A DNA stretch of 64,000 bases from Sipunculus nudus (lineage: Eukaryota > Annelida > Sipuncula > Golfingiida > Sipunculidae), in the NCBI GenBank assembly GCA_026874595.1, contig CM049313.1, positions 77,324,659 to 77,388,658 of the forward strand, written 5' to 3'. Below the pieces are notes generated by a model. The model made no database searches, was not told the origin of the DNA, and worked only from the letters and a program-made list of their open reading frames with translations. The translations under genes and the position numbers were made by a program. Of the stretch, positions 17,527-54,332 are shown piece by piece. Every line of letters starts with the position of its first letter. Position 1 is the first letter of the stretch.

Positions 17527-18648
17527 TAGCTCAGCTAACTGTAAGACTACTGAGGTATAGGAATGGCGCTTTGTCCGTCGTCTGTCGGACACAAATCATA
17601 ACTGCTGGTCCTAGAAACTTATGAGTGAATATCCAGGGAGGTCAATAAAAAATCTCCAGATGATAACTCCAGGTTGGATTGACACATGGATTACAAATTT
17701 GACTTACATATGGCCCACCACAAAAGCAAGAACCTATATTATTTTGGAGTCATGAGGTAAAAGGTCAATGTCACATGACTCACTTATTTAAAAAGATTAT
17801 GGCTGCATTTTTAAGCCAAGCTTTTCATCCCGAACTTTCCATTGTGCACATTTAGCTGACTTGTCAGTATGAAGAGAGCATAAATGATTTGGGGTCACAA
17901 GGTCAAAGTTCAAGGTCACAGCGGCCATCTGTTCACAAATTAGTTTCCAGATGACAAATTGGTTTCAAACTTAACTTATATATGGCTCACCAGTAAAGTA
18001 AGAACAGTGTTGATTTTTGAGTTGAATGGTCAAAGGTCAAGGACAAATTTCTTTAAAAAGATATGCATTTGAAGCCAAACTTTTCACCGCAAACCTTCCA
18101 TCTTCAAGATATTGCTAACCTGCCAATGGGGAAAGATTCTGTTCAATTTTGGGGTCATAGGGTCAAAGGTCAAGATCAAAGGGCCCATCCATTCACAAAT
18201 TAGTTTATGGATGATAATTCTGCTTTGGATAGACAGATTGGCTTCAAACTTGATTTAATAATGACCCACCACTTAAGTAAATTCATTTTGATTTTCAGGG
18301 TCCAGAGATCAAACTTGAAGGTTAAAGGAGCCACATCTTTAAAAAGATTGTGGATGCACTTTAAATTAAATTTTCATCCAGAAATTTCATTTTTCACACA
18401 TGGCTTAATTGCCCAAAGTGAGGAAATCTGTAGATTTTTAAGGTTACCTGGTCAGAGGTCAAGGTCACTTTTTAAAAGATTGTTACAATATTGTAAATTC
18501 TGCAAGTTTAAGGATAATAAGTTCTAAGATTTATTGGTCACAAGGTCATTGGTTAAGGTCACAGGACTGTCATTCTGAAAAATTTCATTAAATATATCCT
18601 TATAGACAAATTCAGCTGAGCATTGAGACCCATGGGTCCCTAGTTGCT
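17527..18648 (+). mobile_element. Family 2 tandem-core element, copy A
   Basis: The 5' end TAGCTCAGCTAACTGTAAG is followed by TGAGGTATAGGAATGGCGC and a GTCCGTCGTCTGTCGGAC block. The 3' end has inverted TTCAGCTGAGC (18611-18621), the palindrome GACCCATGGGTC (18627-18638), then CCTAGTT. Between them lie about three tandem units anchored by ACAAATTAGTTTC (17935 and 18195, 260 bp apart) and an earlier diverged unit about 290 bp upstream. Units carry direct-repeat nuclear-receptor-like motifs, annotated separately. No coding capacity. Architecture suggests a non-autonomous Helentron-like element. Confidence 0.65.
17900..18461 (+). promoter_or_regulatory. Array of DR1-type nuclear receptor motifs in copy A
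   Basis: AGGTCAAAGTTCA (17900-17912), TGGTCAAAGGTCA (18027-18039), AGGGTCAAAGGTCA (18159-18172) and GGTCAGAGGTCA (18450-18461) are one-base-spaced direct repeats of AGGTCA-like half sites. The first overlaps a TCAAGGTCA monomer site (17910-17918). Such motifs bind HNF4/RXR/COUP and ERR/SF-1-type receptors in animals. They recur because the element's tandem unit recurs; binding is not shown. Confidence 0.5.
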
Positions 18649-18880
18649 CAGTTTCTAATCCTCAAAAGAAGGTAGTCCTAAAGGAGGGGTTGGTAAGCCA
18701 CACATGGCCAAAAAAAGGGGTGTGGACATGCTGCCAGAAAACATTCTTTCACATAGGTGTCAATAAATATATGTGATATACAGCAGATGTATCATTTAAT
18801 AATATTAAATTAGGATTTTCCAATTAAATATATATGGATTTATTTTACATGTATTTTACAAATAAAACTTTATTATAAAT
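18649..18880. other. No feature seen
   Basis: AT-rich spacer between copy A and the SINE. Confidence 0.5.
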
Positions 18881-19206
18881 AATCGCGGCACTCTTTATGG
18901 CTCAGATAGTGGCCTTCAGGAGTGCGTTAGGGTGGAAGAAACCACAGAACTTTTTTTCTTTGTTTTATTATTGTATTGTATTTGGATTTACTGAATTACA
19001 TGTTATTGATTATAAAAAAGTACATTCATTAGCACTTTTTTGCTACTTTTCCTATTCAGTAGAAATAAATATGTTTAAACCAACCTAGAGAAAACCACCG
19101 ACCTTGGAGAGGTAACTACAACCCACTCTCATAGCCACGCTGGGGATCAAACCCTGGCCACCAGTGGAGAGAGTCCAGCATTTTACCCCTCTGCTGTTAA
19201 GTCCCC
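18881..19206 (-). mobile_element. tRNA-derived SINE, interrupted copy
   Basis: Read on the minus strand it starts with an A-box-like region near 19195, then a B box (reverse complement of GGGATCAAACCC, 19143-19154). It continues with GTGGCTATGAGAGTGGGTTG and GGTGGTTTTCTCTAGG, and ends in GTGCCGCGATTA. The same order is found uninterrupted at 49677-49868. Here the body is split at about 18948-19084 by AT-rich DNA absent from the other copy. Confidence 0.7.
18948..19084. repeat. About 137-bp insertion within the SINE
   Basis: The SINE body reads GAAGAAACCACAGAAC, then this AT-rich segment, then CTAGAGAAAACC. In the 49.7-kb copy the two sides are joined as GAGGAAACCGG..CCAGAGAAAACC. No terminal repeats are evident in the inserted sequence, so its origin is unknown. 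Confidence 0.55.
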
Positions 19207-19624
19207 ACATATTGATTTTAAATCTAGATGATCAGTTCAGTTTACTAAGGTACCCCTTTCCTTTAAGTGCCAGTGTTAAAATTATCTTTTGTTGGTATTA
19301 GTTGGCCTCTTAGAGAATATTTTAAGAAGAAGAAACTGACTGAATTCTTATGCATTGACCTATTACTAAAGATAAGGTTTCTCAGAAAATGTGTGTATTC
19401 TTTAATAAATTTGTGAATAGATTTTCTAATGTATGAACAATAAAATATTAAAGAACATACCCAGTTTGCACAAGCTGTTATTTGGTATATAATCATGGAC
19501 ATGCTGAATCGATACAATAAAAATGAAAGGATTCTATGCAAATACATGAATCTCTTTATGATTTTGAGTAACTGTTCCGTAACATTTTTTAGCAAAATAA
19601 CATTTAATTCAGTTATACTTGTTA
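19207..19624. other. No gene seen
   Basis: A 146-codon minus-strand open frame (19263-19703) crosses into the next element's terminal repeat. It is dominated by Phe, Ile, Leu, Ser and Lys, and I regard it as chance. Confidence 0.5.
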
Positions 19625-20532
19625 CAGTGGAGGGCCGTTCATCCGAACATCTCGGGGGACACGGGTTTTGTTCGGATAAACGAACGTTCGGATGAACGAA
19701 CATCTGTAAAATAAAATCGCTTCATCGATGTTGTCATCCCGGTATTACTACTAAATGGTGGTACGGTGTCACGGACTTCGGTTAGCTTTCAGAGTTATAA
19801 AAAACGTGAACAGAACGGAATAATGTGTTATAAATACCTTTTTACTATCAAATCAAAATTTCAATCAAGCTATTATAATATCTTTAATTACTTTATTAAG
19901 ATTTTTTGTCAGTAAAGTACATGTACCAGTTAATCTTTCTCAAACGTTCCCGTTCTTGCAATTCACGCACGTGGGATCGGAATTTGTCGATGTGGCTGGT
20001 GTCCGCTGACAAGGCCTCGCCCTGAATCTCAAGCTGCCGGATGCCGTGGCGTTCCTTGAACCGCTGAGCCACCCACTTGACCCACTGTTAAACTGCTCAG
20101 ATGAGTACAAGTTTGAGCGTATCAGAGTCCGACATTATCAGCTCAAAATCTACTCGCTCTCATGGCCGGATGGTTTGCAGGTGTGAACAACTCGACATTG
20201 CAGGACACAAGGTTAATTAGGGGACTCGGCCGGTGGTAGTTTTCACATCTATAACTGCTCAAATGAGTACAAGCCCAAGCTGCGTGGGTACAACTTGGGT
20301 AATTAGGCGTTGTCACACCAGCAGAAACGAACCGGTGATGCATTACTAATTAGTTGGGACCGGGAGTAAATACACGAGCCATTATCAGTTCTTCTTATTG
20401 AATAAATATTATTTTTATATTTCCAGATTTTCAAAATTAAGGAATAAACGGTCATAATTTCGGTTCTCCAGTTTTAATTACAGATAAACGATTTTACGGA
20501 TAAACGGTGTTCGGATGAACGGCGCTCCACTG
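19625..20532. mobile_element. pogo/Tigger-like DNA transposon, non-autonomous
   Basis: Terminal inverted repeats of 25 bp with one mismatch start CAGTGGAG at 19625-19649 and end CTCCACTG at 20508-20532. Inside the ends the motif TTCGGATRAACG recurs. The left flank is TA and the right flank TT, so a TA duplication, expected for Tc1/mariner-pogo elements, has probably mutated on one side. The interior is CpG-rich compared with its surroundings and includes a minus-strand fragment resembling the CENP-B-type DNA-binding domain of Tigger transposases. At 908 bp it cannot encode a full transposase. Confidence 0.75.
19896..20087 (-). pseudogene. Fragment of pogo/Tigger transposase (CENP-B-type HTH region)
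   Basis: This 63-codon minus-strand frame includes VAQRFKERHGIRQLEIQGE followed by ALSAD. It matches in style the second helix-turn-helix of the CENP-B/Tigger DNA-binding region (W..RF..RHGI..-..GE..SAD), which contacts the transposon ends. The same frame extends upstream to an ATG at 20135-20133 but is broken by TGA (20099-20097) and TAA (20090-20088). The frame ends at TAA 19898-19896, which overlaps an AATAAA polyadenylation-like signal. The DDE catalytic domain is absent. It lies inside matching terminal repeats, so it is a remnant of the element's own gene. Family assignment is from memory of the motif and needs a profile search. Confidence 0.6.
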
Positions 20533-22522
20533 TTCTTTGAAAAAAGACAGATGTATGATTAGTTAGTGTATGGTGTTTGAAAATTGCTTGTGTATTTTCT
20601 ATAGCAAATTTTAATGACATGTTTATTGTGGTCCTCTGAGAGAAAGATTTGCCTACTTTTTCCCATTCAGGTATTAGCATTAAAGTTTACATTTATATGA
20701 CTTCAGTTTGTTTTCTAAAAATTCTAAACATTTTTTAAAGTCCTGGGACAGAAAATGAACATACTTTTTGGAAGCACACAAAGTAGTATGAACAATATGG
20801 CATCAGGTATACTTGATACTTAGGTCTGTATAATTATAGCCGAAAATAGAAAAATGCATATATTTGTTTGAACTTGATTTCTCTTTGGCCAGGATAACAT
20901 GTATAGGACAAAAACCGGATACTGCTCATGTATTTGTGAAGGTTTATTAAAAAAAACTTTAGAAGCAGAAATTTTGTGAACCAGGTACCCAAAATAGGTC
21001 ACTAGAATGGATTCAGCTGTGGGAAATTGGCTAATTTTGATAATCCAGTTCAAATTTCTACTGCAGTGTGTTAAATGTTATATATAAAACATTTGTACCA
21101 GTTTGACCCAGGTTGCTGCATTGGTGACATGTTACTCTGATGCCTTTCCCATAATCCCTCAATAAAGTGTGTAAAAAGGAATTCTTGGTGCTCACCAGTG
21201 TGTTATCAGCATAACTGTGCTATTGTTGTGGGACCAGTGCATAATTTATCGCTTTGCACACAAAGGTACATCCCCTTGTATTATCAGGCTAGTTTCTTTC
21301 ACCAGGGTTCTGTTTTTCAGTTCCTCCTTGGGGATTTGGCTGAGTTCATGAACACCTGAATTGGTAGTCACTGGTAAAGCACAATTGCTTTTAGCAGAAA
21401 ATAACACATAAACCATAGAGATCTACAAACGCTCATTTAATTACAGCCAATAAGAGTGTGGATTGTAGACGAAAGCATTCTCTGAATATTACACAGTTGC
21501 ACTAAGTGAGTTTATTGTCGTAAATGGAGGCGGGAATGAAACCACATAAGGGATATAAAATTAAACATCTTCTGTCTACGCTTGTTATTGTCCACTATTT
21601 GTACACAGGTGTGTTTAGCTATATTTTTAATTCACAACACCTGGTTGACTTTATATATATATATTCCCACATGATACTTTATATATTTTACATGAATTAA
21701 TCACCTGGTACCATCATAATGTTGTAAGTGAGGTATACAGTGTTGCATGTGTCAGATTACTTCAGTTTGTGAAATATTTGCTTATCTACCAATCCACCTC
21801 TGATGATTTTCACAGTTTCAGTTATTATATTGCCTGTGGTTTGAAATATGATTTTGAATTGACTGCCAAAGTTGCATGCAGTCAATACTTTATCTATCAC
21901 ACCTGATAACATACATGTATTAACCACTGGTGTGCATGCAGTTTTTGAATTATTATAAATTAGTGGAGGGTTACCTTTGCCAGTGATACCCCAGGTTTAG
22001 TAAAATCAGCAAACCTGTGTCAGCAGCAAGGTTGGTTAATTAGAAAAAAAATGTTCCACCTAAGATATATATCTTTTATGTATATCAGTGCATGCTTACA
22101 AACTATTACTCAGAGACAGGATATGGCAGGAACTTTTAAAAATATTCTTAGTGAATTAGATGAGATTATGGGGGTCCAGTGTTGTTATAGGACTCTTATA
22201 TTAAATCCAATTGGAAATTCATTCATTTCAGGATTAGTTTTTCTCTTTTCAAATAATGGAAAATTTTGTTTTACTATAACACTAGTATATCATTAGCTGC
22301 TATTATCATGACAGCATCGTGATGTAAATTGTAAATGAAAGAAGGAAAGGAGGCAAAAGAAAAACCACTTTCAGTCCATCATGTGTTTTCCAAATATTTC
22401 TGTAAATAAATATGTAGAATTGAAAAATAAGATTTACTTTTATTAGTCCTCAAGGACAGGAAGATACTAGTTTAAATTTATCATTGTTTTGAAAATAGTC
22501 AGTGGGTATACAGCTATTTTAC
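20533..22522. other. No gene seen
   Basis: Mostly AT-rich. 21430-21560 is a less AT-rich patch with AATTACAGCCAATAAGAG (21439-21456), GGAGGCGGGAA and a TATAAAA at about 21555, possibly regulatory. Nothing else was found. Confidence 0.45.
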
Positions 22523-22615
22523 ATTTTATTAAACTTTGGATTGTCTGCATTTGGTGCAGCCAAGCCAGCTCTTGTCTGTGTTGTTTGTTTTCCTGCATTT
22601 GGGCCAGATTCTGGT
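22523..22615 (-). CDS. Candidate exon, coiled-coil-like peptide
   Basis: On the minus strand CTCCTTACAG (a good acceptor, AG at 22617-22616) precedes a frame reading QNLAQMQENKQHRQELAW. This is Gln/Glu/His/Lys-rich and amphipathic, unlike chance frames here. A GTAAAA donor candidate follows at 22522. If that donor is not used, the frame continues into AT-rich sequence to a TAG at 22469-22467. No partner exon in phase has been identified and no family is recognised. Confidence 0.3.
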
Positions 22616-22827
22616 CTGTAAGGAGTGTACACAAACAGATCAGTAAGAGCTTAGTTTTTATCCTGCTGGAGGCGGTTGGCAAGTTTCAGTGTCATGTGCA
22701 GTAGCCTTGTCATCTGTTTATGTATCAGCCCTCTCAGCAGCTAGAATTCCTTCTCATTTACCAAGGAAAATGTTGTCAGTACTTTCTCAGTTTCATCATG
22801 GCCTGCCGTTATGTAGTTAAAAAGACA

Positions 22828-22905
22828 CATGACTCAGGCACACCACATGACTCAGGCACACCACATGACTCAGGCACACCACATGACTCAGGCACACCAC
22901 ATGAC
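22828..22905 (+). repeat. 18-bp minisatellite, 4.3 units
   Basis: Perfect units of CATGACTCAGGCACACCA start at 22828, 22846, 22864 and 22882, with a partial at 22900. The period is a multiple of three, so frames through it are open on both strands. Flanks show no gene, so I treat this as a simple tandem repeat. TGACTCA within the unit is an AP-1 type motif. Confidence 0.9.
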
Positions 22906-23130
22906 CTGCTGTAAATCAAACCGCTCCACCTTTGTGTGGAGAATGAAACAATATATCTGGTTAACCAATGTGTCACAAATATCACATTATGACAGCATAA
23001 AAACCCTCTCAAAAACTCATGTGTATCAGGAATCACATTCTTTCTGGTATTCACATTGAATAATTTGTATACCTCTCATGACAAATACCTGGACTTACCA
23101 GCTGTTCTCTCATAAAAATATCTTTACTTA
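22906..23130. other. No feature seen
   Basis: Spacer between the minisatellite and the MITE. Confidence 0.5.
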
Positions 23131-23434
23131 GGTATGGTTCTCAGGCACAGCCCTGCATCAATTTTAAACCCCCGCATCAAGAATTTTTATTTTGATTTTC
23201 CATAGAAACTTACCAATTTTGAGCTGCAACCGCTTGGACATTTCTTTCAAGAAGATAAATCCATACAGTTTGCTTTGTTATGTAGTGCTTTTACTTGTTT
23301 CGCAAAATAAATCTGTTATTATCATGCTTTTCCCTTTTCATTTGACATTTTTATCGAAACATACCAAAAAATTAAAAAAAAAAAAAACGCCCGCCCGCAT
23401 TGATTTATGAAAAAAAGTGCCTGAGAACCATACC
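23131..23434 (-). mobile_element. MITE, PIF/Harbinger-like (copy 1)
   Basis: The ends GGTATGGTTCTCAGGCAC (23131-23148) and its exact reverse complement (23417-23434) flank about 300 bp. The reverse complement aligns through the interior with the copy at 29799-30098: GGTATGTTTCRATAAAAATGTC, AAGCATGATAATAACAGAT, AAAAGCACTACATAACAAA and ATCTTCTTG all occur in order. The outer GGCCAAAAAAAG seen in the second copy is missing on the left. On the right, only the T-run survives, where family 2 copy B begins. Confidence 0.75.
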
Positions 23435-25578
23435 TTTTTTTAGCTCAGCTGACTATAAGTCATCTGAGCTATAGTCGTGGTCCATTGTCCATCTGTCCGT
23501 CCGGATGTCCGTCCATAAGACTGGCACATTTCGACACCATTCGACCTACGGAACTGAAATTCGGCATACAGTTAGATGTCCCCTAAATATCCTTCCATGC
23601 CGAAAATTGGGTCTATAGGACTTTGTTCCTTCGAGATATTAGGAAAAACCTCAATTTTTTTATTAGAAATCTATTTTTCACACTTCAGGACTGCCTAATA
23701 TCAAAACCACTCATCTTTTTTTCAATATATTTACCATAAATATTCCTCTATATAGTTCCTATGTACATGCCAGAAATTAAGTCAGTATTATTTAATTTAA
23801 AAAAGTTATGGGCCCAAACATAATGGACTTTTTTTCAGTAATACAACTTTAATTAATGAAAATTAAATTGTATACCAAAATTTAGATCAAAGTCTGTTAA
23901 TTTTTTTTAAATATTGGCAAAAATATAAAATTGATACCTTAAATTTTGCCCAACTTTGGCCATGGCACGTTTTTTCCTGTAAGTACTGTGGATTTAATTT
24001 TCACAGCATGTACACATAAGGATTTAATCTATTTAGATCTGAAATTTGAAAATAAAAGCTGCAAAATTAGGCTAGTTATTGAATTTTTTTTCAGGCTCTT
24101 GTTGTATTCCCTTACATTGTCAAGCAGTCCACTTTGGTGACTGTAGGTCATTCAGTGCATATCTCTATGCTCCCCAGGCTGTTGGCATAATGTTAGATGT
24201 CCCAAAGATCTCCTACCTACCTGAAAACTGCGTCTTTGCGACTTTGTTCCTTTGAGAAATTAAGGAAAATCCTCAATTTTTATTAAAAACATATTTTCAC
24301 ACTTCAGGACTGCCATATATCAAAACCACCCATCTGTTTTTCCTCATATTTACCATAAATATTCCTCTATATAGTTCCTATATACATGTCAGAAATAAGG
24401 TCTGTATTATTTAATTTAAAAAAGTTATGGGCTCAAACATAATGCATTTTGTAAAAAATCAGAAAAGATATTTGATCGCTTAACACAAAACATAATAAAG
24501 CTAAGGATTTTTTTCCAGTAATATAACTTTAATTAATCAAAATTAAATTGTATACCCAAAATTAGATCAAAATCTTTTAAATTTTTTAAAATATTAGAAA
24601 AAATAAAAATTTCAACCTTAAATTTTGCCGAACTTTGGCCATGGCACGTTTTTTTCCTGTAAATACTGTGGATTTAATTTTCACAGCATGTGCACATAAG
24701 TATTTATCTGTTAAAATCTGAAATTTGAAAATAAAAGTTGCAAAATTAGGCTAGTAATTGAATTTATTTTGAAGGCTCTTGTTGTATTCCCATACATTGT
24801 CAAGCAGTCCACTTTGGTGACTGTAGGTCATTCAGTGCAGCTCTCTCCACTGAGCTGAGCTTGATCAGGCTGTCTGCAGTTAATACCATACCACAGGGAG
24901 CTTTTTCTCTTTTCTCCCCCCCCCCCCCACCCCACCCCCATTCTGTTGACAGACCTGTACTATGAACTGGATGAATCTTAAAATTAACATTTTTTCAGTA
25001 ACGAGCAGTAACAACGGAGACCCCTCCCCCACCCACCCCTTCAATACACAGGACTAATAAACAAGATGAATCTTTTAATTTTAATGTTATGAATAAATTC
25101 TTTTTGATGAGACTTGGACAATTTTGATTGTTTTAAATTTAATCCTAATATTCAAATGTGATAAAATATTAGGATCTAATGTAAGTGCTAACTGACAAGA
25201 TTTAAGAAGATATAAATACTTTGTAGCATTTCATTCATATCTCATAAAGGTGAATAACACTGTTAACTTAGTATAAAAATTAGGAATATTGGTCAAACTT
25301 TGTTGGATTAAATTTTAACTCATATGGCCATATATTGAACTTTTGAAAACTTAATTACCTTCACACATTATTTGTTTATGAAATGTTACTTTTATATAAC
25401 ACTTACCGTAGGCCTATTTGTTACAGAGTTTCATTTTAGCAGGGCCATTTTCTCAAACTTTTCTAATGATAATATACATGAAAAACCAAAAGAAATAAAA
25501 ATATTACTAATAGTAACTTACAGTTACTAATATTTTCAAAATTCAGCTGGGCGATGTGACCCATGGGTCCCATGTTTA
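23435..25578 (+). mobile_element. Family 2 tandem-core element, copy B
   Basis: The 5' end TTTTTTTAGCTCAGCTGACTATAAG at 23435, with GTCCATCTGTCCGTCCGG, matches copy C closely. The 3' end has ATTCAGCTGGGC (25541-25552), CCCATGGG and CCCATGTTT. Between them a block of about 610-680 bp occurs twice: from GTTAGATGTCCC (23571 and 24191) to CATTGTCAAGCAGTCCACTTTGGTGACTG and GTCATTCAGTGCA (ending near 24157 and 24839). The 3' third holds a C-run (24916-24928) and AT-rich sequence. No coding capacity was found. It starts in the terminal T-run of a MITE. Confidence 0.7.
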
Positions 25579-27132
25579 TTTTGGCCCTACTGCTAATGAA
25601 ACTCTATGGTCAGGTAAAAATTCAATGCCTAAAAGTTTTAGTTTTTGCCTTAATTTTCTGTATTAATATCTGTTTTGTAATTTGTAGGTGTTTTTTCTTC
25701 ATGGCTGGAAACTGTGTGTGTTTCAGGCTTATTGCATGAGTGATGATGTATAAGCGTCTCTCCCATGCCTCTGGAACCATTACCTACTGCAAAACAAGTA
25801 CATGATAGACCTCCTGGGGTTGTAATAATTTAAGCCCAGCAGGGAGCAGCTCTTTCAAGTACCTTCATCATTATGAGCTCTAACAATAAGACCTTCAGCT
25901 GTGAAATCTTTGGGCGTAAGAATTCCATTATAAAGCTGGACAGAGGTGCTACTTGGTTTGGATTAATAATCCGCTGTGGATGCTCGCAGTAGCACCTTCT
26001 GATAAGGCTCAAGGTAAATCACATGGCTTTTATAAATCTCTTGCATGTGTATTCCTGCATATATGTAATCTTGGTGAGATTATTATTACAGAAACTTAGT
26101 CTAGGTGTAAAGGACTAAATGGCCAGTAAAGTGGTGTTCTTATCACAGTATGAAACCAGGAAGTTTTTGTTCCTGCAGCATTGTTTGTCAGCCTTTGTTA
26201 TTGAGAGAACAACCAGCCACCTGTCACAAAGCTACGTGGAAGTGTTGAACCCTTTTTATTCTCCCTACATTTGCCATCAGCGGCAGCTTCATGCTTTCAT
26301 CTTCAACAATAGCATGTTGACACATGCACCCCTGCCTGGGTGGCACAGTAAAAACATATCAGCTTTACATATATTCCCCATTCAGAAGCAGTGCAGTTTA
26401 TACAAACAGTATGATTTTTGTATCATTTTGAGCATGGTCATGAACACGGACATTCAACTGTGATCAACTTTTTAATCTTGGCTCTTCAGTGATAGTTGTA
26501 TTGGACAATTGTGACCGTTAACACGGTCAGAATACCTCACAGGTGGGAGCTGGCATAAGGCCATCATCCAGACTGCATGTGCTCAGATTTCTTTCAAATT
26601 AAGTGATGCACTGGTTTATTACGGAACATAACTCCAGAATTACTTAGTTGTTGAGTTCTAGGTTTTCTACTTCACTTTAAGGGGTCTTGTACTCTTTTAA
26701 AAATGTTCGTAGGTCTACACAAATCAGGTATACAGTCAAATAGGTGTTAATAATCATGAATAGAACACTGCCTCTAGTTGGAAGGATTCATTTGAAGATG
26801 ATAAATTTATGGTTGTAGATGATTTATATAATGAAAATTTCTGTATTTGAGGTATTGATAAATACAGATATAACAACAGCCATTGAGACTCTTGATTAAT
26901 CTCCAAGTCCATGACTAGGTCTTAAAACCTGGTCTGGCAGGTGGACTTTGAACTTGTGACCATTAATTATTGTTTCATTATTAGCATGCTCTTTTTATCC
27001 TTGCATGTTTGATTTAGTTTCAACCTTTAACTCATGGAAGTGAAAATCCTCATTGCTTAATGATTTTTAGAAAAGTGACGTTCAGGTTGTGAAAATTTCC
27101 CAGGATCACTATCAGAGACTACAGATTCAATA
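25579..27132. other. No confident gene; two weak open frames
   Basis: 25833-25988 (plus) encodes a run including KTFSCEIFGRKNSIIKLDRG, but the minus strand is also open and an in-frame stop lies just upstream. A single ATG frame at 26119-26463 is described separately. The rest is unassigned. Confidence 0.4.
26119..26463 (+). CDS. 114-codon ATG open frame, unknown
   Basis: This begins with ATGG in a favourable context (AAATGGCC) and ends at TGA. The product starts MASKVVFLSQYETRKFLFLQ. Composition is fairly balanced for the first 80 codons and has no signal peptide or membrane segment I can defend. No polyadenylation signal or promoter is obvious. A frame of this length is not surprising by chance in 64 kb, and no homologue comes to mind, so the call is weak. 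Confidence 0.2.
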   Translation: MASKVVFLSQYETRKFLFLQHCLSAFVIERTTSHLSQSYVEVLNPFYSPYICHQRQLHAFIFNNSMLTHAPLPGWHSKNISALHIFPIQKQCSLYKQYDFCIILSMVMNTDIQL

Positions 27133-27705
27133 TTTTAGCTCAGCTGACTTGCCTGCACAGCAATCAAATGAGTGATACATCACAGTTTTACAAAACAATC
27201 AATGGATGAATTGAATCAAATTTATATGCATTATAAGCATTTACTGTGCATATATCTCCCTATTTCATAGATAAATTTGAATTAATCGAAGTTTAATCAT
27301 TACAGATTTAACAGAAGGAACATCATTTTACCAATATGATGACAAAGTATTTTGTCATTGAAAATTATTATTTTAGCTTAAATCTAGCCCAAAACATTTC
27401 CAGGATAATCCTGCCTAGGATACTTTTATCATTTGCATGAGACCAAAAAATTGTGATATTTTACTCAGATTTAAGTAGTATATACTTGTATTCACATCAC
27501 ATTCCTTGCCAGCTAACTGTTAACAGTTTGTTGGCTGTTTGGAAACAGATGGTTTCTGGGAAGGACAATGATATATTGGTCTGTGCTGATGATGTCTTTG
27601 CAACTTTCTGCTTCTGTTTCAGGGATCTTAACTTTTTGGTCAATGAAAGATCAATGTGCTATGAGTTTTGCTTGTCGGATACACAATATGACCCATGAGT
27701 CATTT
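27133..27705 (+). mobile_element. Family 2 element, decayed copy F
   Basis: TTTTAGCTCAGCTGACTTGCC at 27133 is a clear family 2 5' end. The likely 3' end is ACACAATATGACCCATGAGTC near 27682-27702, where the palindrome is degraded and the inverted subterminal repeat is not recognisable. The interior is unlike the other copies. Boundaries are uncertain. Confidence 0.4.
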
Positions 27706-27963
27706 GGAAAGTTTTAAAATTAAAAAAAGTTAAGTAAAAAATGTGCAGCTAAACCTTTAAAATCCATTAACTGTAAATATAAATATGATAAATAATAAAT
27801 TTGAAAAATTTTTTGTTACACCTAAGAGGAAAATTTTGTAATGTTATGGTATCCTTATAAGGATAGAGTTATTGCTTTCATAATGACGGTAAAGTGGGTG
27901 TCATCTTAAACTGAAAGCTGGTCAAAGGAGTACACACAGGGGAGGGTGGGGCGGGGATCCTAT
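27706..27963. other. No feature seen
   Basis: AT-rich spacer, with a G-rich segment near 27939-27958. Confidence 0.5.
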
Positions 27964-28101: not shown

Positions 28102-28103
28102 CT

Positions 28104-29798: not shown

Positions 29799-30098
29799 GG
29801 CCAAAAAAAGTATGGTTCTCAGACATTTTTTTTTTAATCAGTGCAGTTGGGCAATTTTTCTTCTTTTTTTTTTTGGTATGTTTCAATAAAAATGTCATAT
29901 GATCAGGGAAAAAGCATGATAATAACAGATTCTTTTAGCTAAACAGTTAAAAGCACTACATAACAAATAAAACAATGCAATTTGATAAGATTTCATCTTC
30001 TTGTAAGATGAAAATCAAAATAAAAATGTTTGAGTGGGGGGGGGGGGGGGTGTTAAAATTGACGTACGCATTGCCTGAGAACCATACTTTTTTTGGCC
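29799..30098 (+). mobile_element. MITE, PIF/Harbinger-like (copy 2)
   Basis: 300 bp long with 24-bp perfect terminal inverted repeats starting GGCCAAAAAAAGTATGGTTC (29799-29822 and 30075-30098). The flanks read TTA on both sides, matching the TWA target duplication of PIF/Harbinger elements, whose ends also begin with GG. A 15-base G-run lies at 30036-30050. The interior aligns with copy 1 in opposite orientation. It has no coding capacity, so it must have moved with a transposase supplied from elsewhere. Confidence 0.8.
30036..30050 (+). repeat. G15 homopolymer
   Basis: Fifteen consecutive G inside the MITE. The corresponding part of copy 1 is CCCCCGC-like (near 23169), so the run has probably expanded in this copy. 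Confidence 0.9.
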
Positions 30099-32670
30099 TT
30101 ATTTAGTAAATTTATTTTGATGAAATTTCTTGTCAGCTAAGTTAACAGAAATTGAATACAAACCTTTGCTTTTAGCATAAAAAAGGTGCAGTTGTACCTA
30201 TTTACGATGTATCAGTTGTTCAACTTGTACGAGTTTGAAAACTTAGCAGACTCTTTGATAGCTGACCTTTGGCATTCACTCTTTTTCATTTATTTATCTA
30301 CATGAAAAAAAAGCCAGCAACATCTGCTGTACCCATTAACTCAAAGAGAGATGCTAAAGATGCTTTTTTGAACTTTGAATTACTTAAGATCAAAACTAAC
30401 CTATAACATGCAAAAAACAAAGTTGTATCATCAGACCTATCTTGTCTCATATAAATTAAAAATAATAAATTATTTGGACTACCAACAAACTGATAACTAT
30501 TTTAATCCATAATTTTGTGGTAAAGGTATACCTTTGGTAACAGAATTAATGTTTGAATTTCCGTCTACCCTTTGCATGATTTGTGTTTGCCTCAGTTTTT
30601 ATGTGTTGCTTTTGTAGTGTAGGTTGCTTGTAGTATGAGAACAGTTGGAGGGTTGATGTGCATTTTATTTGCTGCCGACTAAAACTTGTCAGCAATTCAG
30701 TACAGTGCTTATTTTTAGTTTAATACTAGGCCACCAGATGTCATTACCAGTTGGAGATTGCTGTCATGTTGTTGATTTCACTTGGCAACCATGAAGCTCA
30801 GTACAAATATACCACAGGGGGCAATGGCAGCCTGCCATCTCTGTAACCCTTAGTTAGAGGGTCAGGGCTGTGTGTTGTAACAGTTAATCTCCACTTTATC
30901 AGATTTGGGAGTGTCCTGTTTTGTTACATAAGATGATGTTATCTGATCCAATAGGGGGCACTCCACACTGTGCAGCTCAAAGACCTGAGGTATTAAAAAC
31001 ACATTAGCCACCACAGGGGTATGAGGAGAGAAGTGACCCATGCACTGCCACCCTAAACTGGTCTGTCTTCATGATCAAGTGGATCTTTCATTCCAAGTAA
31101 ATGTTATTTAAATGTATTCACACTTGGATAATTTCTGAGCTGAGAGAAGGAATGTCAGATCTGTATCTAAATAAGAAGATTAAAAATACTTACTAACAAC
31201 TTAATTAGAAACAAGAGGCATGTCACATCTTGAACTTGCCTTGGATGTTTTAGACTTATAAATGCCATTGTCAGCCCTGAACTCATAAGACAAGAACAGC
31301 TAAAATGAAACTCTTGTAACAGTCTTTTGTTTCTTAAATTTTATATTTAATTATGTGTTTTACTTTAAGATTCTTATTTTTGATCTTGTTAAGTCAATGT
31401 TATGAGTAATTCTCAGTTTTTTTTTCTGTTTCAGAAAGGCTTGAAACATGTTTTTTTCTTAGAATTTCAGTGCTGTTGATATCTGTTTTTTCATTTAAAA
31501 AGGTTTGAATTATCTGTACACTGATTGAAGAATACTGTATTAGAGTTAACAGTGATCATTCCCTGATCAGGCCTCAAAAGTTAGCTGCAAAATTCTGTAG
31601 TTTGCTGTATTATGATCTAACTGTTCCAATTGCAAAATGTTTTCTTTAAACTTGTAATGAGCATGACTTAATTTAAGTCGTTTTAATTGGTTATTCAGTC
31701 AGCTTCAAATTACAGCTTGTAGAGTTTCATAAAAAAATTGTGAACTGGTAGATTCATTGATTTATTTATCCAGGTTCAAAGTTTAACATGAAATGTTTAC
31801 TGAGTTAATGTCTCTTATATAGATTCATATCAAAATGTGTAAAAAAAATGCCATATTAATCTTAACAGTAGGAGTGTGACAATCCACAGGCTAATCTAAA
31901 CAGTAAAGGGTTTATACTTTCATGGACTATTACTTCTTAAAATTTCAGTTGTTGAATCCTTGATTTGGATGTACTATACTGTGTGGTTAATTGGTTTATG
32001 TGGGGGTATATATTTTTTAATTCATCAGTATGCAAGTGACAATATCTAATAACTTTACTTGTACTGAAATTCAGTTTATTCATTTGGAAAAAACGTGTGC
32101 GTAGGGAAAGGTAGAATTGTTTTAGTTTTATCAGTATTTCTTCAAATTTTCTTTCTTTTAATGACATCGGGCACCTGATAAACAGGCAGAGTGTCACACT
32201 GTCCCCTTGTACAAAGTGCTGTATCATTATTATGGATGAGTGAGCTTTATAAGTATACAATTTGTGGTTTAGTCTGGGCTTACCGGTTTCTTGTGTGTCT
32301 GCCTTGTAAGAGTGGATTTTCTCACCTGATCAATGTGTCAAGTACATGTCTGCTCATATTCTCACCTGGTTACTTAATCTTTCTGTTTATGCATGCACCA
32401 ATCACCATATGCTAAGCCTTACACTTGTACAAATGCTTCTTGCACCATAGAGAAGTGGTTCCTGTGTTAGATGGGGACAAAGACAGCACATGATAATAAA
32501 TAGCATTGACTAAAATAACACCACTTGTGGTCAACCACAAAGACATGATCAAAGGATGGTGCAATGAAAGATTTTTAGAAGCTGCATCTTTTGAGAGAAA
32601 ATTTCTTTATTTTTCATTCATAATTAAAGATCCTCCTGTTATTAGGCTACTGTGTGTCATGTATAATGAG
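30099..32670. other. No gene seen
   Basis: Long AT-rich stretch. Slightly less AT-rich at 30720-31060, without splice signals or open frames worth noting. Confidence 0.5.
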
Positions 32671-32801
32671 TTTTAGCTCAGCTGACTTAAAAGTCAAATG
32701 AGCTATAGTGATGGTTTGTTGTCCATCAGTTGAACTGGCACGTTATAAAACCCTTTGACCTACAAATCTGAAATTTGATTCTTTGTATTGTGACTTGTAT
32801 T
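32671..32801 (+). mobile_element. Family 2 element, 5' fragment (copy D1)
   Basis: TTTTAGCTCAGCTGACTTAAAAG followed by GAGCTATAGTGATGG, GTTGTCCATC and GGCACGTT..AAACC matches the first about 110 bp of copies B and C. The sequence then meets copy D2, which is in the opposite orientation. Confidence 0.7.
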
Positions 32802-33778
32802 AAAACAAGTGACCTGCGGGTCATGATGCTCAGCTGACTGACATGTTAACAATATGACCTTGCACAAGCACCTATTTAGGATAATGCAGGTGGCATCATC
32901 ATTCATGCATATTAGCTTTAGTTCATCAAGACCCATAAGCACACCTAATTGAGGATATGGGTCACAGAGACTTAATCTCAGGTTTACTTGGCGATTTTTT
33001 TCATGTACCTCCTAGGATGTCAAGTTAGAAGATGCTAGGTCCAACGGTTTCGATTTGTGCCCTGTTAAAGGATGACCCTTCATTTGAAGGTATCAAAAAT
33101 GAGAAAATAATGTGTGAAAATAGGAAAAAATACAGGTGGTGCCACCAGCTTGGAAGAACTGATGACACTCCATGATTAACATGCACACAAAAAATCATGG
33201 TAATCAATGCATTAGTTATTCAGCTGGAGCTTATGTATCAAACTTTTAATTATTCTGAAGGGTACTTACCAGCCCCATAGCTCAAAGGATATCAGTAACA
33301 GAGACCTAATTTCAGAATGCCAAGGAGATTTGCCTAGACCCTCCCTGGATGTACAGTTAGAAGATTATAGATCCAATGGTCATGATTTGTGCCCTTTAAA
33401 TGGACAACTGGTTCTTTGAACGCTCAAAAATAATGAAAAAAGATGCATAATGGTTGGAAAAATGTGGCACCACCAGTATGCAGGAACTGATGAAACACTT
33501 CATTATCTATATGGATGCAAAGAATCATGGGGATCAAATGAGTAGTTGTTCAGAAACTGGAGCTTTTGTATCAATTTTTTTTTTATTATTCTTGAGGGAC
33601 CTATGAGCCCAATAGCTCTACGAATATGGGTAACAGAGACCTAATTTAGGTTTTCACTGAGATTTTTCATGATAGGTGTAAAGTCTAATGGTTACGATTT
33701 GTGCCCTGTTAACTGACGGACAACTGGACGGACAACAGACGAAGGTGATCACTGTAGCTCAGATCAGCAGAGCTAAAA
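32802..33778 (-). mobile_element. Family 2 element, copy D2, with 335-bp units
   Basis: On the minus strand it starts TTTTAGCTCTGCTGATCTGAGC (33778 downward) with GTCTGTTGTCCGTCCAG. It ends with the inverted repeat GTCAGCTGAGC, GACCCGCAGGTC and CTTGTTTT (32802-32809). Internal units anchored on GGATATCAGTAACAGAGAC-like sequence lie at about 32953, 33288 and 33623, exactly 335 bp apart twice. Each unit holds a CAGGTGG..CCACCAG near-palindrome and a GATTTGTGCCCT block. No coding frame. Confidence 0.75.
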
Positions 33779-34480
33779 CCCTGAGGCTGGCTTTGAATGG
33801 CTTACAAACCTTTGAGGTGATGAGGAAGATGTGGCTTAGACACCTTTGATTAAATGTAAAGTAAAACCTTTAAAGTTATGTGGCTTAATTAGACACCTTT
33901 GATTGATGAGGAGTAAAACCCTGAAGATAGTGTGGCTGAGAAACTGTTATTTTGATGTGGTGTAGAGCCTTGAAGATGATGTGTGTTAGACTTCTTTTGA
34001 GTTAATGTGGAGTAGAACCCTGGTGATGGTGTGGCTTGGAAACCTTTTTTAAGGTCATGTGGAGTAGAACCCTGAAGATGGTGTGACTTAGAATCCTTTG
34101 AGTTGATGTGGAGGAGAACCCCTTAAGATGGTGAGGCTTAGTCATCTTTGAGTCAAATTAGAGGAGAACCCTGAAGACAGTGTGGCTTATAATCCTTTGA
34201 TGTGGTGTGGAGTAGAACCCTGAAGATCATGTAGCTTAGAAACCTTTGAGTTGCTGTGGAGTAGAACCCTCAAGATGGTGTGGCTTAGTCACCTTTGAGT
34301 TCATGTGGAGTAGAACCCTGAAGATCATGTTGCTTAGTCATCTCCGAGTCGATCTGGAGTAGAACCCTGAAGATGGTGTGGCTTAGATGTGACTTACAAA
34401 CCTTAGCGTTCATGTGGTGTAGTAACTGAGAACCAGAGAGCTATGTTTTGGCAAAAACCTCTAACTTACTGTGGTTAACC
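33779..34480 (+). repeat. 49-bp minisatellite, left part
   Basis: The unit is TGGAGTAGAACCCTGAAGAT followed by GGTGTGGCTTAG and CCTTTGAGTTGATG. Positions 34212, 34261 and 34310 start GTAGAACCCT exactly 49 bp apart. About 14 units are recognisable, with growing divergence towards the left edge, where it abuts copy D2. The period is not a multiple of three and every frame is closed, so it is non-coding. Confidence 0.85.
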
Positions 34481-34905
34481 GGCTTCTGTGGCTCAGGGGT
34501 ATAGCATAGGTCTCAAAGCCGGGAGATCGTGAGTTGGAATGTCAGCCGAGGCGGTGAGATTTTTCACGATCTGCCCCCACCCAAGGTGAGCGCTCTGCAG
34601 GCTGAATGGGAAGGTTGTGCCCAAAGGCTGTGTTTGACTCACAAACGAATGCGCCTTTCGGGGGTTACTCAGTGGTATGATCCAGCTGGGGATGGGGACT
34701 ATTACGCACCCAGGGCCCGCAGGTGCAGTTGTCACAGGGCCTGGTTGACGCCAGGATATAAAATGAAAGGAAGCGTGTGATACTACCCTGTCACGTAGTC
34801 CAAACCCGGAACAGATTTCTGCAGATGTACATATATGTAGTTAAGTTAGCATTAAAAAAGTGGAGGCGGTTACCTCCACCAAAAAAAAAAATAAAATAAA
34901 AAAAT
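34481..34905 (+). mobile_element. tRNA-derived SINE inserted in the minisatellite
   Basis: The A box TGGCTCAGGGG is at 34489-34499 and a degraded B box GTTGGAATG at 34533-34541. The body is more GC-rich than its surroundings. A TGGAGG..CCTCCA hairpin (34861-34878) precedes an A-rich tail (34881-34905). The 49-bp and related repeats resume directly after. Target duplication is not clear. Confidence 0.7.
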
Positions 34906-35175
34906 AGTGGTGAGCAGAAAGCTATGAGTAGTTACTGTGTACAACCAGAGAGCTAGAGGCAAGTAGAATCCTTTGAATTGACATGGAATAGAACCCTGAA
35001 GATGATGTGACTTACAAACCATTGAGTTAATGTGGAGTAGTAATGGAGAACCAGAGAGCTATGTTTGGGCAAAAACCCTTTAACTTGCTGTCATGTAGAA
35101 CCACAGAGCTGGTGGTGAGCAGAAAGCTATGAATAGTTGTGGATTGGAATGACTAAAATCACAAAGCTAGTTGAA
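34906..35175 (+). repeat. 49-bp minisatellite, right part
   Basis: Units continue as AATAGAACCCTGAAGATGATGTGACTTACAAACC, mixed with a second phrase, GAACCAGAGAGCTATGTTTGGGCAAAAACC, that also flanks the SINE on its left (34431 and 35050). The array was therefore continuous before the SINE inserted. Confidence 0.75.
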
Positions 35176-37521
35176 GCAGAAACCTTTTAGCAATATATAT
35201 TGCTGTGTTTTTCAGATGGAATGTACAAATCTTGGATACAGTATATGAAAAAGGAGCTTATTTGACTCTCATTAAGTAAAGTAGCAATATAGACCTTTGT
35301 TTGGACAGAGATCCCTCCAGTACACAGTTATTGCATATATCCTGAAGAAATAAGACCCAACAAGAGAAGTCCATATGTCCTCCAAGGAATTCATGACATT
35401 TGTGATACTGTGACATTCAAATGAATTTTCATAGATTTTGCAATAAATTAGTTTAAACCTGATATCCTTCTCACTTTGATGAACTTAGCAGTTGCCTAGT
35501 GTTAATTAGCTGATTATCAAGACCTGCTGATTAGCAGTAACAGAAAAAATATATATCCTGGTAAATCTGTAGTGATAGGAAAATTTTATACAGATCAGAT
35601 TAACAGACAAATTGCTGAGGCTGACCAATAAAGACAAATTTAGTGCAGGGTGTTAAGCAGCAGTTCTAGACAAAATAACAAGTCTTTCAGCTAATCAAGA
35701 AATGAAGGAGGAATAAATTGCTATGGCTATTATGACAGAGAGTGGGTAGTTGGTGAGTTTTCTTCTGATTGCCAGTCCTGACGGCTGTAATGAGACATTA
35801 GAAGCCCCATGCATAAGGGCATCATCTGAAGGTATCTGAATCGATCAAAATATTTTCACAGAATTATATTCCCTCGACTACCCAAGCACAATGAGTAATC
35901 AGTTAGTAACCAGAGACATCAATTGCAATTTAACCAATGACAATATGGGTAGATTAGCTATGTTGGGTGAGGATAAAGATTTGCCTGTGGGGTGTTATTG
36001 CAGTCAATAGTCATTGCCTTAGGTGACATGTACATGCCTGGGTGCACAGAAAAACAGTAGGACTAGCCACTCATTTGTGCTGGGACTAATGGTGAGCCCA
36101 TCATGAAAGCTGTAAGGTATCCTGTAGAGAAATGTATATAAGAAACCAACCAGGGGGGCTAGTATCACAGCTAAATTACAAGACCAGGACACACAGACCC
36201 ACTACATCTTTTACACCTTAAGTAAACATCACTGCTCTCAATGGGTTCCATATGTCCTCCAAGTTAGAACCCTAGATCTTCTACAAGTCCTACCAGTTTA
36301 AGTCCCGCTGCATAGGTGCATGCATATGCCTGCTTTGCATGCAAAAAGGGGCCTGGATGGTCATGTGATTTGTGTGTATGGCCCAGTAGCCTTCAAAGGG
36401 GTCAAAGGTCAGCTCACTCTTACTATAGCTGGCTTGAGTGGCAAGGAGCATTGGAGTGTGCCAAGCCTCAGATAGATGGAACGCTCACTGATTCACTGCT
36501 CACTACTGCTCTGGAGGAAAGTTTTGTGCGGTGACCCATATGCATGGAGGTTATGATTCACATTCGGAGGTTTACCTGTTGTATGTGTATAGTGCATGTA
36601 GCGCACCACTGACAGAAACATATCTCCTACACAGTAAATGTACTCAGGACAGAACTGTGTATCCTGCTTAAGACATACCACTCTATAGGACTTTACCTAA
36701 GGATTTAACTTGGAGACTTACAAGGAATACCTCATTTATATAGACAACAGGTAAGTCAGGTTTATTTGTTAATTAGTAATGATGGGCACCTCAGGTAATT
36801 ATTATCTGCCTGTGTACATATCTCAGGTTGTGTACTCGTGCCAGGTGTAATCTGTGTACAGTCATTAAACATAGAGTTACTTAGGGGTGTCAGTGATGAT
36901 ATCAGAGACTTGTGGCTTCAGTATCTGATAATGGCAGCCTGATGAAGAAGATTAGAGATAACCAGCGATCCTTGATACAGACAAGAAGGTTGGCACGGCT
37001 GGATGGAGGGGTGTTCATATTGATTTTTGGTGACAAATCACTTGGTGATTAAGCTCTTTGACATCTCTTTTATATGTTAGAAGGGCTTACAGATGGTACA
37101 CATATGTTAGATTAATTTGGATGTTGGATATGAAATATATTATAAAGTTTGCGTAAAATTCAAATATGATCAAGTCCTGGAGAAATAAATGACACACAGA
37201 CACGCTCTGTGGCTTCATTCACATGTTCAAATAAGATAAAAGGGGTTTGATCAGAGCTGAATCAGAAAATGTGTTTGGGAATCAAATATTAATAATTATA
37301 ATATACATTGGTAATATAATAGGATTCTGTAAATGTTACTTATTATAGACACACACATACACTCCTTGTGCCTGTGTTTGTTTTATTTTCAATGATACAT
37401 GTATCAGGTGATCTGTAAAAACTGTCACAGAAAAATTGAACACTTAATTACCTGTTGGAACATGTGTAGATCTACAGGTATACACATTTAAAAAATACAA
37501 TTGTGAATTTAAAAATATTTT
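35176..37521. other. No gene seen; one strong DR1 motif
   Basis: Non-repetitive, moderately AT-rich. CCATATGTCCTCCAAG occurs twice (35371 and 36248). A 72-codon frame at 36316-36534 has no recognisable family. 36290-36540 is the least AT-rich part. Confidence 0.45.
36398..36411 (+). promoter_or_regulatory. Perfect DR1 nuclear receptor motif
   Basis: GGGGTCAAAGGTCA is two AGGTCA-type half sites spaced by one base, the consensus bound by HNF4 and RXR heterodimers in animals. It lies outside the recognised family 2 copies. Function is inferred from the motif only. Confidence 0.4.
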
Positions 37522-39394
37522 TAGCTCAGCTGACTGTAAGTCATCTGAGCTATAGTCGTGGTCCATTGTCCGTCGTCCGTCCGTCTGTCCTGCCGTCCGT
37601 CCGTAGATGTGGCACGTTTTGAAACCGTAAGACCTAGGAATCCAAAATTCAGCAAAATGTTAGATGTCCCCAAGATCTCCTACCAAGCCGAAAACTGGGT
37701 CTTTGAGAAATTAAGGAAAAACCTCAATTTTTTATTAAAATCCTATTTTCACACTTCAGGACTGCCTAATATCAAAACCACTCATCTTTTTTTCCTCATA
37801 TTTATCATAAATATTCTTCTTTATAGTTCCTATGTACATGCCAGAAATTAAGTCTGTTAAGTATTAATTCTTTAAGTTATGGGCCCAAACATAATGGACT
37901 TTGTAAAATATCAGGAAAAATATTTACTCACTTTACATGAAAAATTTTGAAACTAGAGTATTTTCCCAAGTATATAACTATGTTTAATTAAGATTCAATT
38001 GTTTACCCAAAATTAGATCTGAATTTTGTAATTTTTTTAAGTAATTAGCATAAAAATAAAATCAGTACCTTAAATTTTGCCCAACTTTGACCATGGCACG
38101 TTTTTTTCCTGTAAGTACCCTTGATTTAATTTTCACAGCATGTAAACATAAATATTTAATTTGTATAAATCTGACATTCGGAAATAAAAGCTTGAAAATT
38201 AAGCTATTTTTTTATTTTTTACTTGAGGCTCTATTGTAGTCATTTGCTTTGATTACAGATTACAGATCCAGGGTCCCTCTCCAGGTCACTGGAAGTCAGC
38301 TATGCCAGGGTTTCTGATTTGTTACAGTCACTGTCACTGGGGGAGATCCCCTGCTGTGACAGGTGTACAGTTATTCTCATATCACCACCCCAATCACCCC
38401 CCCCCCCAACCCAAACCACCAAGTGTTATGCAGTATTGTTATTGTTTTCACTGTATCTCCTTAATTGTTTCCACTCTGATATGCAAAAACTTTCCTTGAA
38501 AAAGTAATTCAAAGTGTAATCCAGAAGATGCAATGTTGTGTTATGTAGCATTTTTAAAGAAATCATTTTTCTTTTAAATGATTTTACCAATCATAATGGA
38601 ACCCATCAGTATGCTTAAATTATGATAAAATATGAAGCACATTATAGATTAATAAAGACACAATTAAAAATTATGAAATCTAAATCAAGTATTTTTTTTA
38701 GATATTTATTGTTTTGCAGATTTAAAAGATATATTTTTGTGGTAAAAAATAAATAAACATTTGTATGCATGATGTTGTGTTATCTGACAAGATTGAGATT
38801 TATGATGATGCAATTGAGAATTATGAATCAACTTTTATATTCAGATATATATGTTATATTGAAAATGTATAGAAATATAAACTTAAATTAAAAAAAAAAT
38901 TGATGTGATAAAAAAATGAGGATTTATTACAAACATTTGTTCATTATTTTCCTGCATCAGCAGAATTTGAGATCAGGCTTTGTTTGCCATGTTTTATGTT
39001 GTTAATAAGTTATATTTCAACTATACATTTCATAAAAAAAACATATATTTAATAATATATATTATACAAAAAAAAGATTCGATTGAACAAATGTGTAAAC
39101 TACTGAAATGTCAACAGTTAATCGAAAAGCCAACTTATGATCATGGTAATTGTACAGATCATTTGTTCACAAACTGCTCACATGCTTCAGTTTCAACATT
39201 AGGAAACACATGGTCAGGTCACAAAATATTATTTGCAACAATTTCTTGCACATCCATACAAACCAATCATATAAACCAACCATGGCCTTTATTACCTCTT
39301 CCTCTTACACTATATCCCCATTTGATATTATTTTATATTTTTACCTTCAAGGTTAACGTCAGCTGAGCACAGTGACCCATAGGTCCCTTGTTTT
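37522..39394 (+). mobile_element. Family 2 element, copy C, with endonuclease relic
   Basis: The 5' end TTAGCTCAGCTGACTGTAAG and a GTCCGTCCGTCTGTCC block match copy B. The first about 700 bp follow B closely: GTTAGATGTCCC, AAAACCTCAATTTTTTATT, CACTTCAGGACTGCC and TTGCCCAACTTTG. The 3' end has GTCAGCTGAGC (39359-39369), GACCCATAGGTC and CCTTGTTTT (39386-39394). Unlike the other copies its 3' third contains a protein-like frame resembling a non-LTR-type endonuclease. It is therefore the copy closest to an autonomous parent, although no replication-initiator or helicase sequence is seen. Confidence 0.7.
39073..39255 (+). pseudogene. Endonuclease-like relic (EEP/CR1-type C-terminal part)
   Basis: The frame reads QQLIEKPTYDHGNCTDHLFTN and then TLGNTWSGHKILFA. 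The order L-I-x-x-P-T, D-H-x-x-T-N and S-x-H-K is the usual C-terminal signature of the apurinic-like endonuclease of CR1-type non-LTR retrotransposons and of Helentrons, where the final motif is normally SDHK. Here the Asp is replaced by Gly, so catalysis is unlikely. The frame is embedded in a longer AT-rich open frame (38980-39366) whose first 30 codons look non-coding. It ends 25 bp before the element's 3' palindrome. The match is from memory and needs a profile search. Confidence 0.5.
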
Positions 39395-54240: not shown

Positions 54241-54332
54241 GTAAAGAGCGTATGGGTCTTGACACTCAGCTGAATTTGTCTATAGGGATATTTTCATTAG
54301 CTTTTTCAAAATGTGATCAGTTGGGACTTAGG

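Follow-up and report, generated by a model that had tools for sequence, protein, structure and literature searches.

The subject of this study is a set of dispersed, internally repetitive elements in a 64,000-nucleotide stretch of the Sipunculus nudus genome (contig C8, C8:77324659-77388658; hereafter the window), in an assembly of 1.43 Gb and 153 contigs. Copies were defined by a self-comparison of the window together with profile models of both element ends. Five of them have both ends (A, B and E on the + strand, D2 and F on the - strand) and a sixth, D1, is a 5' stub; no coding capacity was seen in any of the window elements. Helentrons are eukaryotic rolling-circle transposons whose nuclease is of the single-strand HUH class, and the best explanation of the window repeats as a whole is that they are HINEs, the non-coding derivatives of Helentrons (probability roughly 0.88). 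Under that reading, and with the types defined further below, the features are these (window coordinates):

17526..18646, + strand: copy A, a type III HINE with the 5' end TTAGCTCAGCTAACT, a tandem core of ~272 bp and the 3' end TCAGCTGAGC..GACCCATGGGTCCCTAGTT.
23440..25577, + strand: copy B, a type I HINE with a core of two ~621-bp units and the 3' end GACCCATGGGTCCCATGTTT.
27137..27149, + strand: a bare 13-mer, formerly copy C (claimed extent 27137 to 27701), rejected as an element.
32673..~32797, + strand: copy D1, the 5' stub of a type I-like HINE split by D2, with no 3' part found.
33780..32803, - strand: copy D2, a full-length type II HINE nested in D1, with a core of ~334 bp, a decayed 5' end and the 3' end TCAGCTGAGC..GACCCGCAGGTCACTTGTTT.
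37521..39393, + strand: copy E, a type I HINE with a single unit of the B core.
55126..54252, - strand: copy F, a chimera of type III ends and a type II core, its 3' terminus decayed beyond GACCCAT.

The initial annotation had listed seven copies (A, B, C, D1, D2, E and F) with common end motifs and differing tandem cores. Its motifs and cores stand: the 5' motif AGCTCAGCTGACT (at most two mismatches) has 16 occurrences in the window where 0.86 would be expected, the palindrome GACCCATGGGTC (at most one mismatch) five where 0.03 would be, and self-comparison gives tandem offsets of ~272 bp in A, 621 bp in B (two units), 334 bp in D and 140 bp in F. The number of copies had to be reduced, as C offers only the 13-mer and a palindrome variant, lacks the 5' hairpin partner, the GTCC stretch and the inverted 3' motif, and has a 5' profile score of 15.3, where A, B, D1 and E score 45.5-60.9. 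The scores of D2 (10.7) and F (35.9) are also low, yet the 3' end and core of both match; the strands previously given for these two copies were wrong, and both are now placed on the - strand. That annotation had included F only as probable and within 17527..39394; the type III/II copy described here lies beyond that range, and its correspondence to the earlier F is uncertain. D was also considered as one element with terminal inverted repeats and rejected, D2 (-) being nested in D1 (+) in the opposite orientation. A 49-bp tandem array and related remnants (33830-34387 and 34964-35160) flank a tRNA-like short interspersed nuclear element (SINE; ~34473-34880), and this array may be a former part of the D1 core.

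Read from 5' to 3', an element consists of a T string, AGCTCAGCTGACT, its near-complement AGTCATCTGAGCT, a GTCC-rich stretch, the tandem core, the inverted motif TCAGCTGAGC, the palindrome GACCCATGGGTC and CTTGTTT. Just inside the 5' subterminal inverted repeat (subTIR), B and E carry a complementary inverted repeat (IR) that makes a 13-bp stem with one mismatch and a 3-nt loop; folded as DNA it reaches -10.6 kcal/mol (z about -5), a value that no shuffle equals. Across 15 full-length copies, five from the window and 10 from fetched loci, the subTIR measures 11-13 bp in four and 10 bp in two more (the ends match exactly, in inverted orientation, over 13 bp in L013a, 12 bp in L010b, 11 bp in both E and L009a, and 10 bp in L013b and in L027a). 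Among the fetched loci L006 overlaps L005 and was omitted. The palindrome or its variants, followed by CTTGTTT-like ends, characterizes 21 profiled 3' ends; in L027 it is GGCCC..GGGCC, with paired changes in its two arms. The 5' hairpin pattern had no exact match in the viral contigs searched, and the window holds no tRNA and no Rfam gathering matches.

This anatomy resembles that of the Cg_HINE elements of Crassostrea gigas, for which the sections of the report drawn on here describe a 5' subTIR with an adjacent complementary IR, a GTCC-type microsatellite, a short satellite-like core, a 3' subTIR, a 3' palindrome and a T-rich target without duplication (PMC7492417); the likeness is one of anatomy. 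The HINE, DINE-1 and Helentron superfamily, as excerpted, likewise has a subTIR, an IR, a 3' palindrome, a boundary T string (2-5 in Culex) and a TT target (PMC4067079). Four sequence strings found no match in the literature text searched.

Insertion was studied by comparing filled and empty sites for 23 pairs of 5' and 3' ends, in the window and the fetched loci. Five candidate rows resulted, four of which represent the single insertion of L010a while the fifth lies in L005, and only one clean empty site was found, that of L010a, a type III copy at C1:1.02 Mb. Its filled site reads AATCATTTTT, AGCTC..CTAGTT and then GTGTTGTG (longer flank GTGTTGTGTGCACC), and a paralogous empty site lies in the window:

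3955..4050, + strand: empty counterpart of L010a, AATCTTTTTAGTGTTGTG (longer form AATCTTTTTAGTGTTGTGTGCACC), with flanks 95% and 97.5% identical, 80 bp per side.

Further empty counterparts are AATTTTTGTGTTGTG in L008 and AATCATTTTAGTGTTGTG, more diverged, in L028. The insertion occurred at a T-run and without duplication, although the assignment of the boundary Ts to the element is ambiguous; insertion into a TT or T-rich target without target duplication, which had been proposed as a check, was thus borne out at one site, in a family member outside the window copies. Nested insertions, viewed from their left side, are also within T-runs. At the one in L001 there are 5 Ts in the filled site as against 3 in the host copies compared. 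This fits the report, in the part used here, that the Ts at the boundary of Culex Helentrons are part of the element, in a string of variable length (2-5; PMC4067079). In L005, L007 and L010 an inserted copy occupies one and the same T-run of the type I core (site CCATGGCACATTTTT); insertion may recur at this site, as at a hot spot, or a single composite may have been amplified.

The elements are extremely numerous. The exact 13-mer 5' end occurs 42,888 times genome-wide (21,287 + 21,601), as compared to 6 occurrences (4 + 2) of a reversed control pattern. Head-to-tail junctions, in which a 3' end is followed by a 5' end with at most 6 bases between them, number 148 (72 + 76; control 0), and among the 100 listed 25 have no extra base and 24 have one (49 in total). 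Tail-to-tail junctions, sought genome-wide with a like exact pattern, number 0. Junctions exclusively of the head-to-tail kind are what rolling-circle read-through would predict.

The identity proposed in the initial annotation, Helentron or HINE, is well supported by the anatomy, by the L010a empty site without duplication and by the one-sided junctions (148 vs 0). Two other assignments share some of these features. Non-autonomous Helitrons of the canonical kind (5' TC, 3' CTRR, insertion between A and T) are also of the rolling-circle class, have a 3' palindrome and make no duplication; here, however, the ends are a T string with AGCTC and CTTGTTT, insertion is into T-runs and the defining termini are absent, which makes such an origin very improbable. 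We regard as equally improbable a mere collection of satellite fragments or of miniature inverted-repeat transposable elements with terminal inverted repeats. The inverted motif at both ends, the tandem cores and the lack of visible coding capacity would agree with it; but the inverted motif is subterminal, the apparent terminal inverted repeat of D is two nested copies, dispersed copies have fixed ends, tail-to-tail junctions number 0, and there is no target duplication at the one empty site, L010a.

Several observations weigh against the HINE identification. Copies A, D2 and F form only a weak 5' hairpin; 9 of the 15 copies, all of them decayed, have an exact inverted motif shorter than 10 bp; and on folding the 3' hairpins of single copies were no more stable than shuffled sequences. 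The sole clean empty site belongs to a relative, L010a, and not to a window copy. The repeat pair 23268-23440 / 29803-29973 was considered as an empty site of B and rejected: the left flank of B is homologous to 29803-29973 (83%), but to the right of the T-run only TTTTGGCC is shared and the right flank does no better than shuffles, 740 of 1000 of which reach its score; the repeat flanking B may simply end at the T-run. One-sided junctions, finally, would also arise if a copy inserted into the T-rich 3' flank of another.

By ends and cores, the 15 copies fall into three types. Type I (B, E, L013b, L016a, L021a and L029a) has a unit of ~600-680 bp, type II (D2, L009a, L010b, L013a, L016b and L027a) one of ~165/335 bp, and type III ends are found in A, L010a and F. 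Within type I, E and L013b (C8:75.3 Mb) are 94% identical across their full length of 1.9 kb. L010a holds several different arrays, the core of A being joined there by a type II-like stretch and by another, third array. The suggestion that cores are repeatedly replaced or expanded has held up well, core exchange and expansion being supported by the three types, the chimeric F and the multiple arrays of L010a. The Cg_HINE groups, too, are described in the sections consulted as having related flanks around unrelated cores and double arrays; their core units measure 138-181 bp, whereas units of 270-680 bp also occur here (PMC7492417).

A full-length partner with the same ends and with Rep, helicase and endonuclease had also been proposed. 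Genome-wide there are at least 143 matches to Helitron_like_N (150 of 195 candidates were scored), seven of which sit in open frames of 2,229-2,426 aa. One was read, over 9 kb:

C11:50380500-50389500 (L039 1110-7814), - strand: frame P0001, 2,235 aa, with OTU, Helitron_like_N, PIF1 and Exo_endo_phos and an in-frame stop just upstream.

Judged by its predicted domains this open frame is a Helentron, so that a frame of the right class was found; the same ends were not, as the 9 kb around it contain neither AGCTCAGCTGACT (at most three mismatches) nor GACCCATGGGTC (at most two), a further point against the identification, though the termini of L039 may lie beyond those 9 kb. Machinery of the right class thus appears to be present in the genome, and its linkage to these HINE ends is putative. 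An autonomous partner with the same ends is shown in the consulted part of the superfamily report (PMC4067079); here there is a candidate only. Matches similar to L039 occur elsewhere in the genome (L035-L038). L040 was discarded as a partner locus, the region having missed its target gene.

A second family in the window is unrelated in sequence to the first and is HINE-like by its 5' end alone, a T string and TTTTTTAGCGAAYCTGTGAGCTTATGC followed by GTCGTCC:

1394..2230, + strand: second HINE-like family, TTTTTTAGCGAACCTGTGAGCTTATGC, GTCGTCC and divergent repeated units.
2757..3043, + strand: a further copy or unit.
12186..12421, + strand: a further copy, 81% identical to 1394-1636.

Its exact 5' ends number 4,645 genome-wide (2,358 + 2,287). 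Two other repeats were noted, a third dispersed tandem family (CAGGTCAAGAGTTCACTCAGTGCAGCC; + at 3147-3700 of the window, - in L004, L008 and L010 of the C1 - block) and a palindromic array of CTGGGCYGGCCCAG units at 9205-9498.

The strand of the main-family ends is ordered along the chromosome. We followed it on C1:0-14.3 Mb with two lists of sites having G or C at position -12; 195 of the 200 listed sites were used, two tandem duplicates and three with an internal-arm flank being dropped. Concordance of strand is high for close pairs (147/181 below 50 kb, 119/160 at 50-100 kb), declines with distance (202/289 at 100-200 kb, 158/260 at 200-300 kb) and becomes even (243/474 at 300-500 kb, 605/1197 at 0.5-1 Mb). 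The pattern persists when the first 3 Mb are removed: 88 of 114 pairs below 50 kb agree, the value at 0.5-1 Mb (308/746) falls below one half, and the sites form 47 runs where 71.5 are expected (runs test, p 5e-5). Orientation on this stretch therefore forms blocks of roughly 0.1-1 Mb, with half-concordance beyond 0.3 Mb. The purest is at C1:0.096-0.935 Mb, where the matches listed comprise 73 - and 2 + 13-mers. Upstream letters, printed for 100/100 sites of the first list and 75/100 of the second, are mostly different, and some 12-nt flanks recur two or three times. The C1 blocks were upheld by the two site lists above and by directly read sequence, in which C1:0.935-1.13 Mb is -; so is C8:75.3 Mb, while at C8:75.9-78.7 Mb, around the window, all 10 of the 5' ends scoring >45 are +. 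A sharp switch from - to + at C1 1.0-1.2 Mb was rejected, its + only part being apparently an artefact of match order, and a telomere-ward polarity rule failed on C4 (97.5 Mb), which has three - sites at 95.6-96.9 Mb. Cg_HINE copies are reported in both orientations and without positional preference, and the sections consulted contain no mention of orientation blocks (PMC7492417); a literature search that covered few subscription journals found no title reporting such blocks for Helitrons or Helentrons.

The same blocks recur in the second family. With the 72 of 100 listed second-family sites that lie below 14.3 Mb, strand agreement between the two families on C1:0-14.3 Mb was 57/63 pairs below 20 kb, 60/74 at 20-50 kb and 82/106 at 50-100 kb; rotating the second-family strand series reached these values in 0 of 71 cases for each bin below 100 kb and in 3 of 71 at 100-200 kb. 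Beyond 1.2 Mb the same three bins gave 39/45, 38/52 and 47/70, reached by 0 of 57 rotations. Over 42 bins of 100 kb (rho 0.67) the families agree in 32, disagree in 4 and tie in 6; in bins of 300 kb rho drops to 0.25 (p 0.15), from which we conclude that many blocks are short. On the C1 stretch sampled, it seems that the locus decides the orientation of insertion, and does so alike for both families.

Blocks could in principle have been produced by local spread that preserved the orientation of a founder, through nested self-insertion in T-runs, rolling-circle tandems or segmental duplication. Head-to-tail tandems do exist, some flanks recur as noted above, and 12 of the 31 strong 5' ends are nested in another copy, all 12 co-oriented (three at one site; a same-orientation match was found for 13 of the 31, one of which was microsatellite only, matches being kept if at most 25 nt from the end of the 120-nt flank). 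But 11 of the 12 nested cases are in the C1 - block and are thus not independent evidence. Neighbours in that block differ in type (L009a and L010b are type II, L010a type III), its same-type copies are 75-79% identical over most of their length, and most flanks differ. An unrelated family keeps the same blocks, also at 10-50 kb (85/102 pairs agree). Since the two families are unrelated in sequence, the local spread of one founder is no explanation for blocks that both share; its main prediction, one family and one founder per block, already fails, and we consider it improbable.

The rolling-circle class suggests how a locus could impose an orientation. The Rep, helicase and endonuclease of a Helentron, supplied in trans, would nick at the T-string/AGCTC end and displace one strand up to the 3' palindrome, where a failure to stop would yield head-to-tail dimers. 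The displaced single strand would be joined to a T-rich single-stranded target; new cores could arise by recombination of cores, or when transposition takes its 5' end from one copy and its 3' end from another. If one particular target strand is needed, orientation would record which strand was exposed at the locus. We tentatively favour the lagging-strand template at replication forks as that strand, insertions being then oriented by fork direction, because Helentron machinery belongs to the single-strand HUH class, because the blocks tend to alternate beyond 3 Mb and because there is a precedent in the bacterial single-strand transposons IS200/IS605, whose orientation is reported, in the part of the study used here, to follow replication by way of the lagging-strand template (PMC5371812). 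That comparison is functional only, copy orientation there following local strand asymmetry, and no membership is claimed; fork dependence is reported for IS200/IS605 and would be a conjecture for HINEs.

Transcription is possible as well, and about as likely as fork direction: insertion into, or survival in, long genes could favour one orientation, either because the non-template strand is exposed or through selection against sense insertions. Any strand asymmetry at the level of the locus would be common to two families, and blocks of 0.1-1 Mb could equal long genes or gene clusters. Purity, however, is high (73 to 2 among the matches listed at C1:0.096-0.935 Mb, 57/63 across families below 20 kb) and exceeds the orientation bias generally known for intronic insertions, and the concordance of 308/746 at 0.5-1 Mb beyond 3 Mb suits alternating blocks, even if the whole stretch is even (605/1197). 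Base composition would suit fork direction and transcription alike. In element-masked DNA the GC+TA skew is positive in 12 of the 15 regions from the C8 + stretch (in several of them close to zero) and negative in 8 of 10 - regions, with one extreme outlier; this excess of G+T on the element strand would suit the leading strand, and the coding strand as well. The tally covers 25 of 32 regions, 10 of the 15 + regions being assigned by their position between + ends, and omits L001 (3 nt unmasked), L012, and L014, L015, L030, L031 and L032, which have no assigned block. Extreme skew outside masked elements was seen in L009 (C1:935000-944999; GC -0.42, TA -0.41), whose skewed DNA is perhaps another satellite.

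A number of results go against the view that the locus sets a common orientation, or that it does so for Helentrons in particular. The weaker copies D2 and F are -, opposing the local + orientation; at L023, inside the C8 + stretch, three second-family ends are - and the main family, nearly tied, leans the same way; and L012, a + end left out of the tally, has a skew of -0.054. A sparse genome-wide sample (196 of 200 listed sites, four near-duplicates dropped) is only mildly concordant, with 12/17 pairs at 10-300 kb, 19/33 at 0.3-1 Mb and 24/57 at 1-2 Mb. As controls we used two sparse families, of 922 and 940 copies, which we take from their tRNA-like letters to be SINE-like. They gave 12/23 concordant pairs at 10-200 kb, too sparse to decide Helentron specificity. 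One of them was concordant in 9/11 pairs below 100 kb (7 of the 9 within three clusters, each of three copies) and in 1/7 at 100-200 kb. The C1 stretch has 13 control sites, of which 12 could be placed and 8 match the local Helentron majority. The control sites are too few to establish a polarity specific to Helentrons.

The elements themselves are ordinary in kind, a new HINE family of good anatomy and very high copy number, which shows the anatomy of HINEs and the exchange of their cores in one more large genome, with 42,888 exact 13-mer ends. The surprising part is that the orientation blocks are common to two families. If these blocks follow fork direction, an element-rich genome would be a readable record of the direction of germline replication (or transcription), the choice of target strand by eukaryotic rolling-circle transposons would become directly testable, and tens of thousands of copies from unrelated families would constitute a fossil map of germline replication, in which the edges of the blocks would mark zones of initiation and termination.

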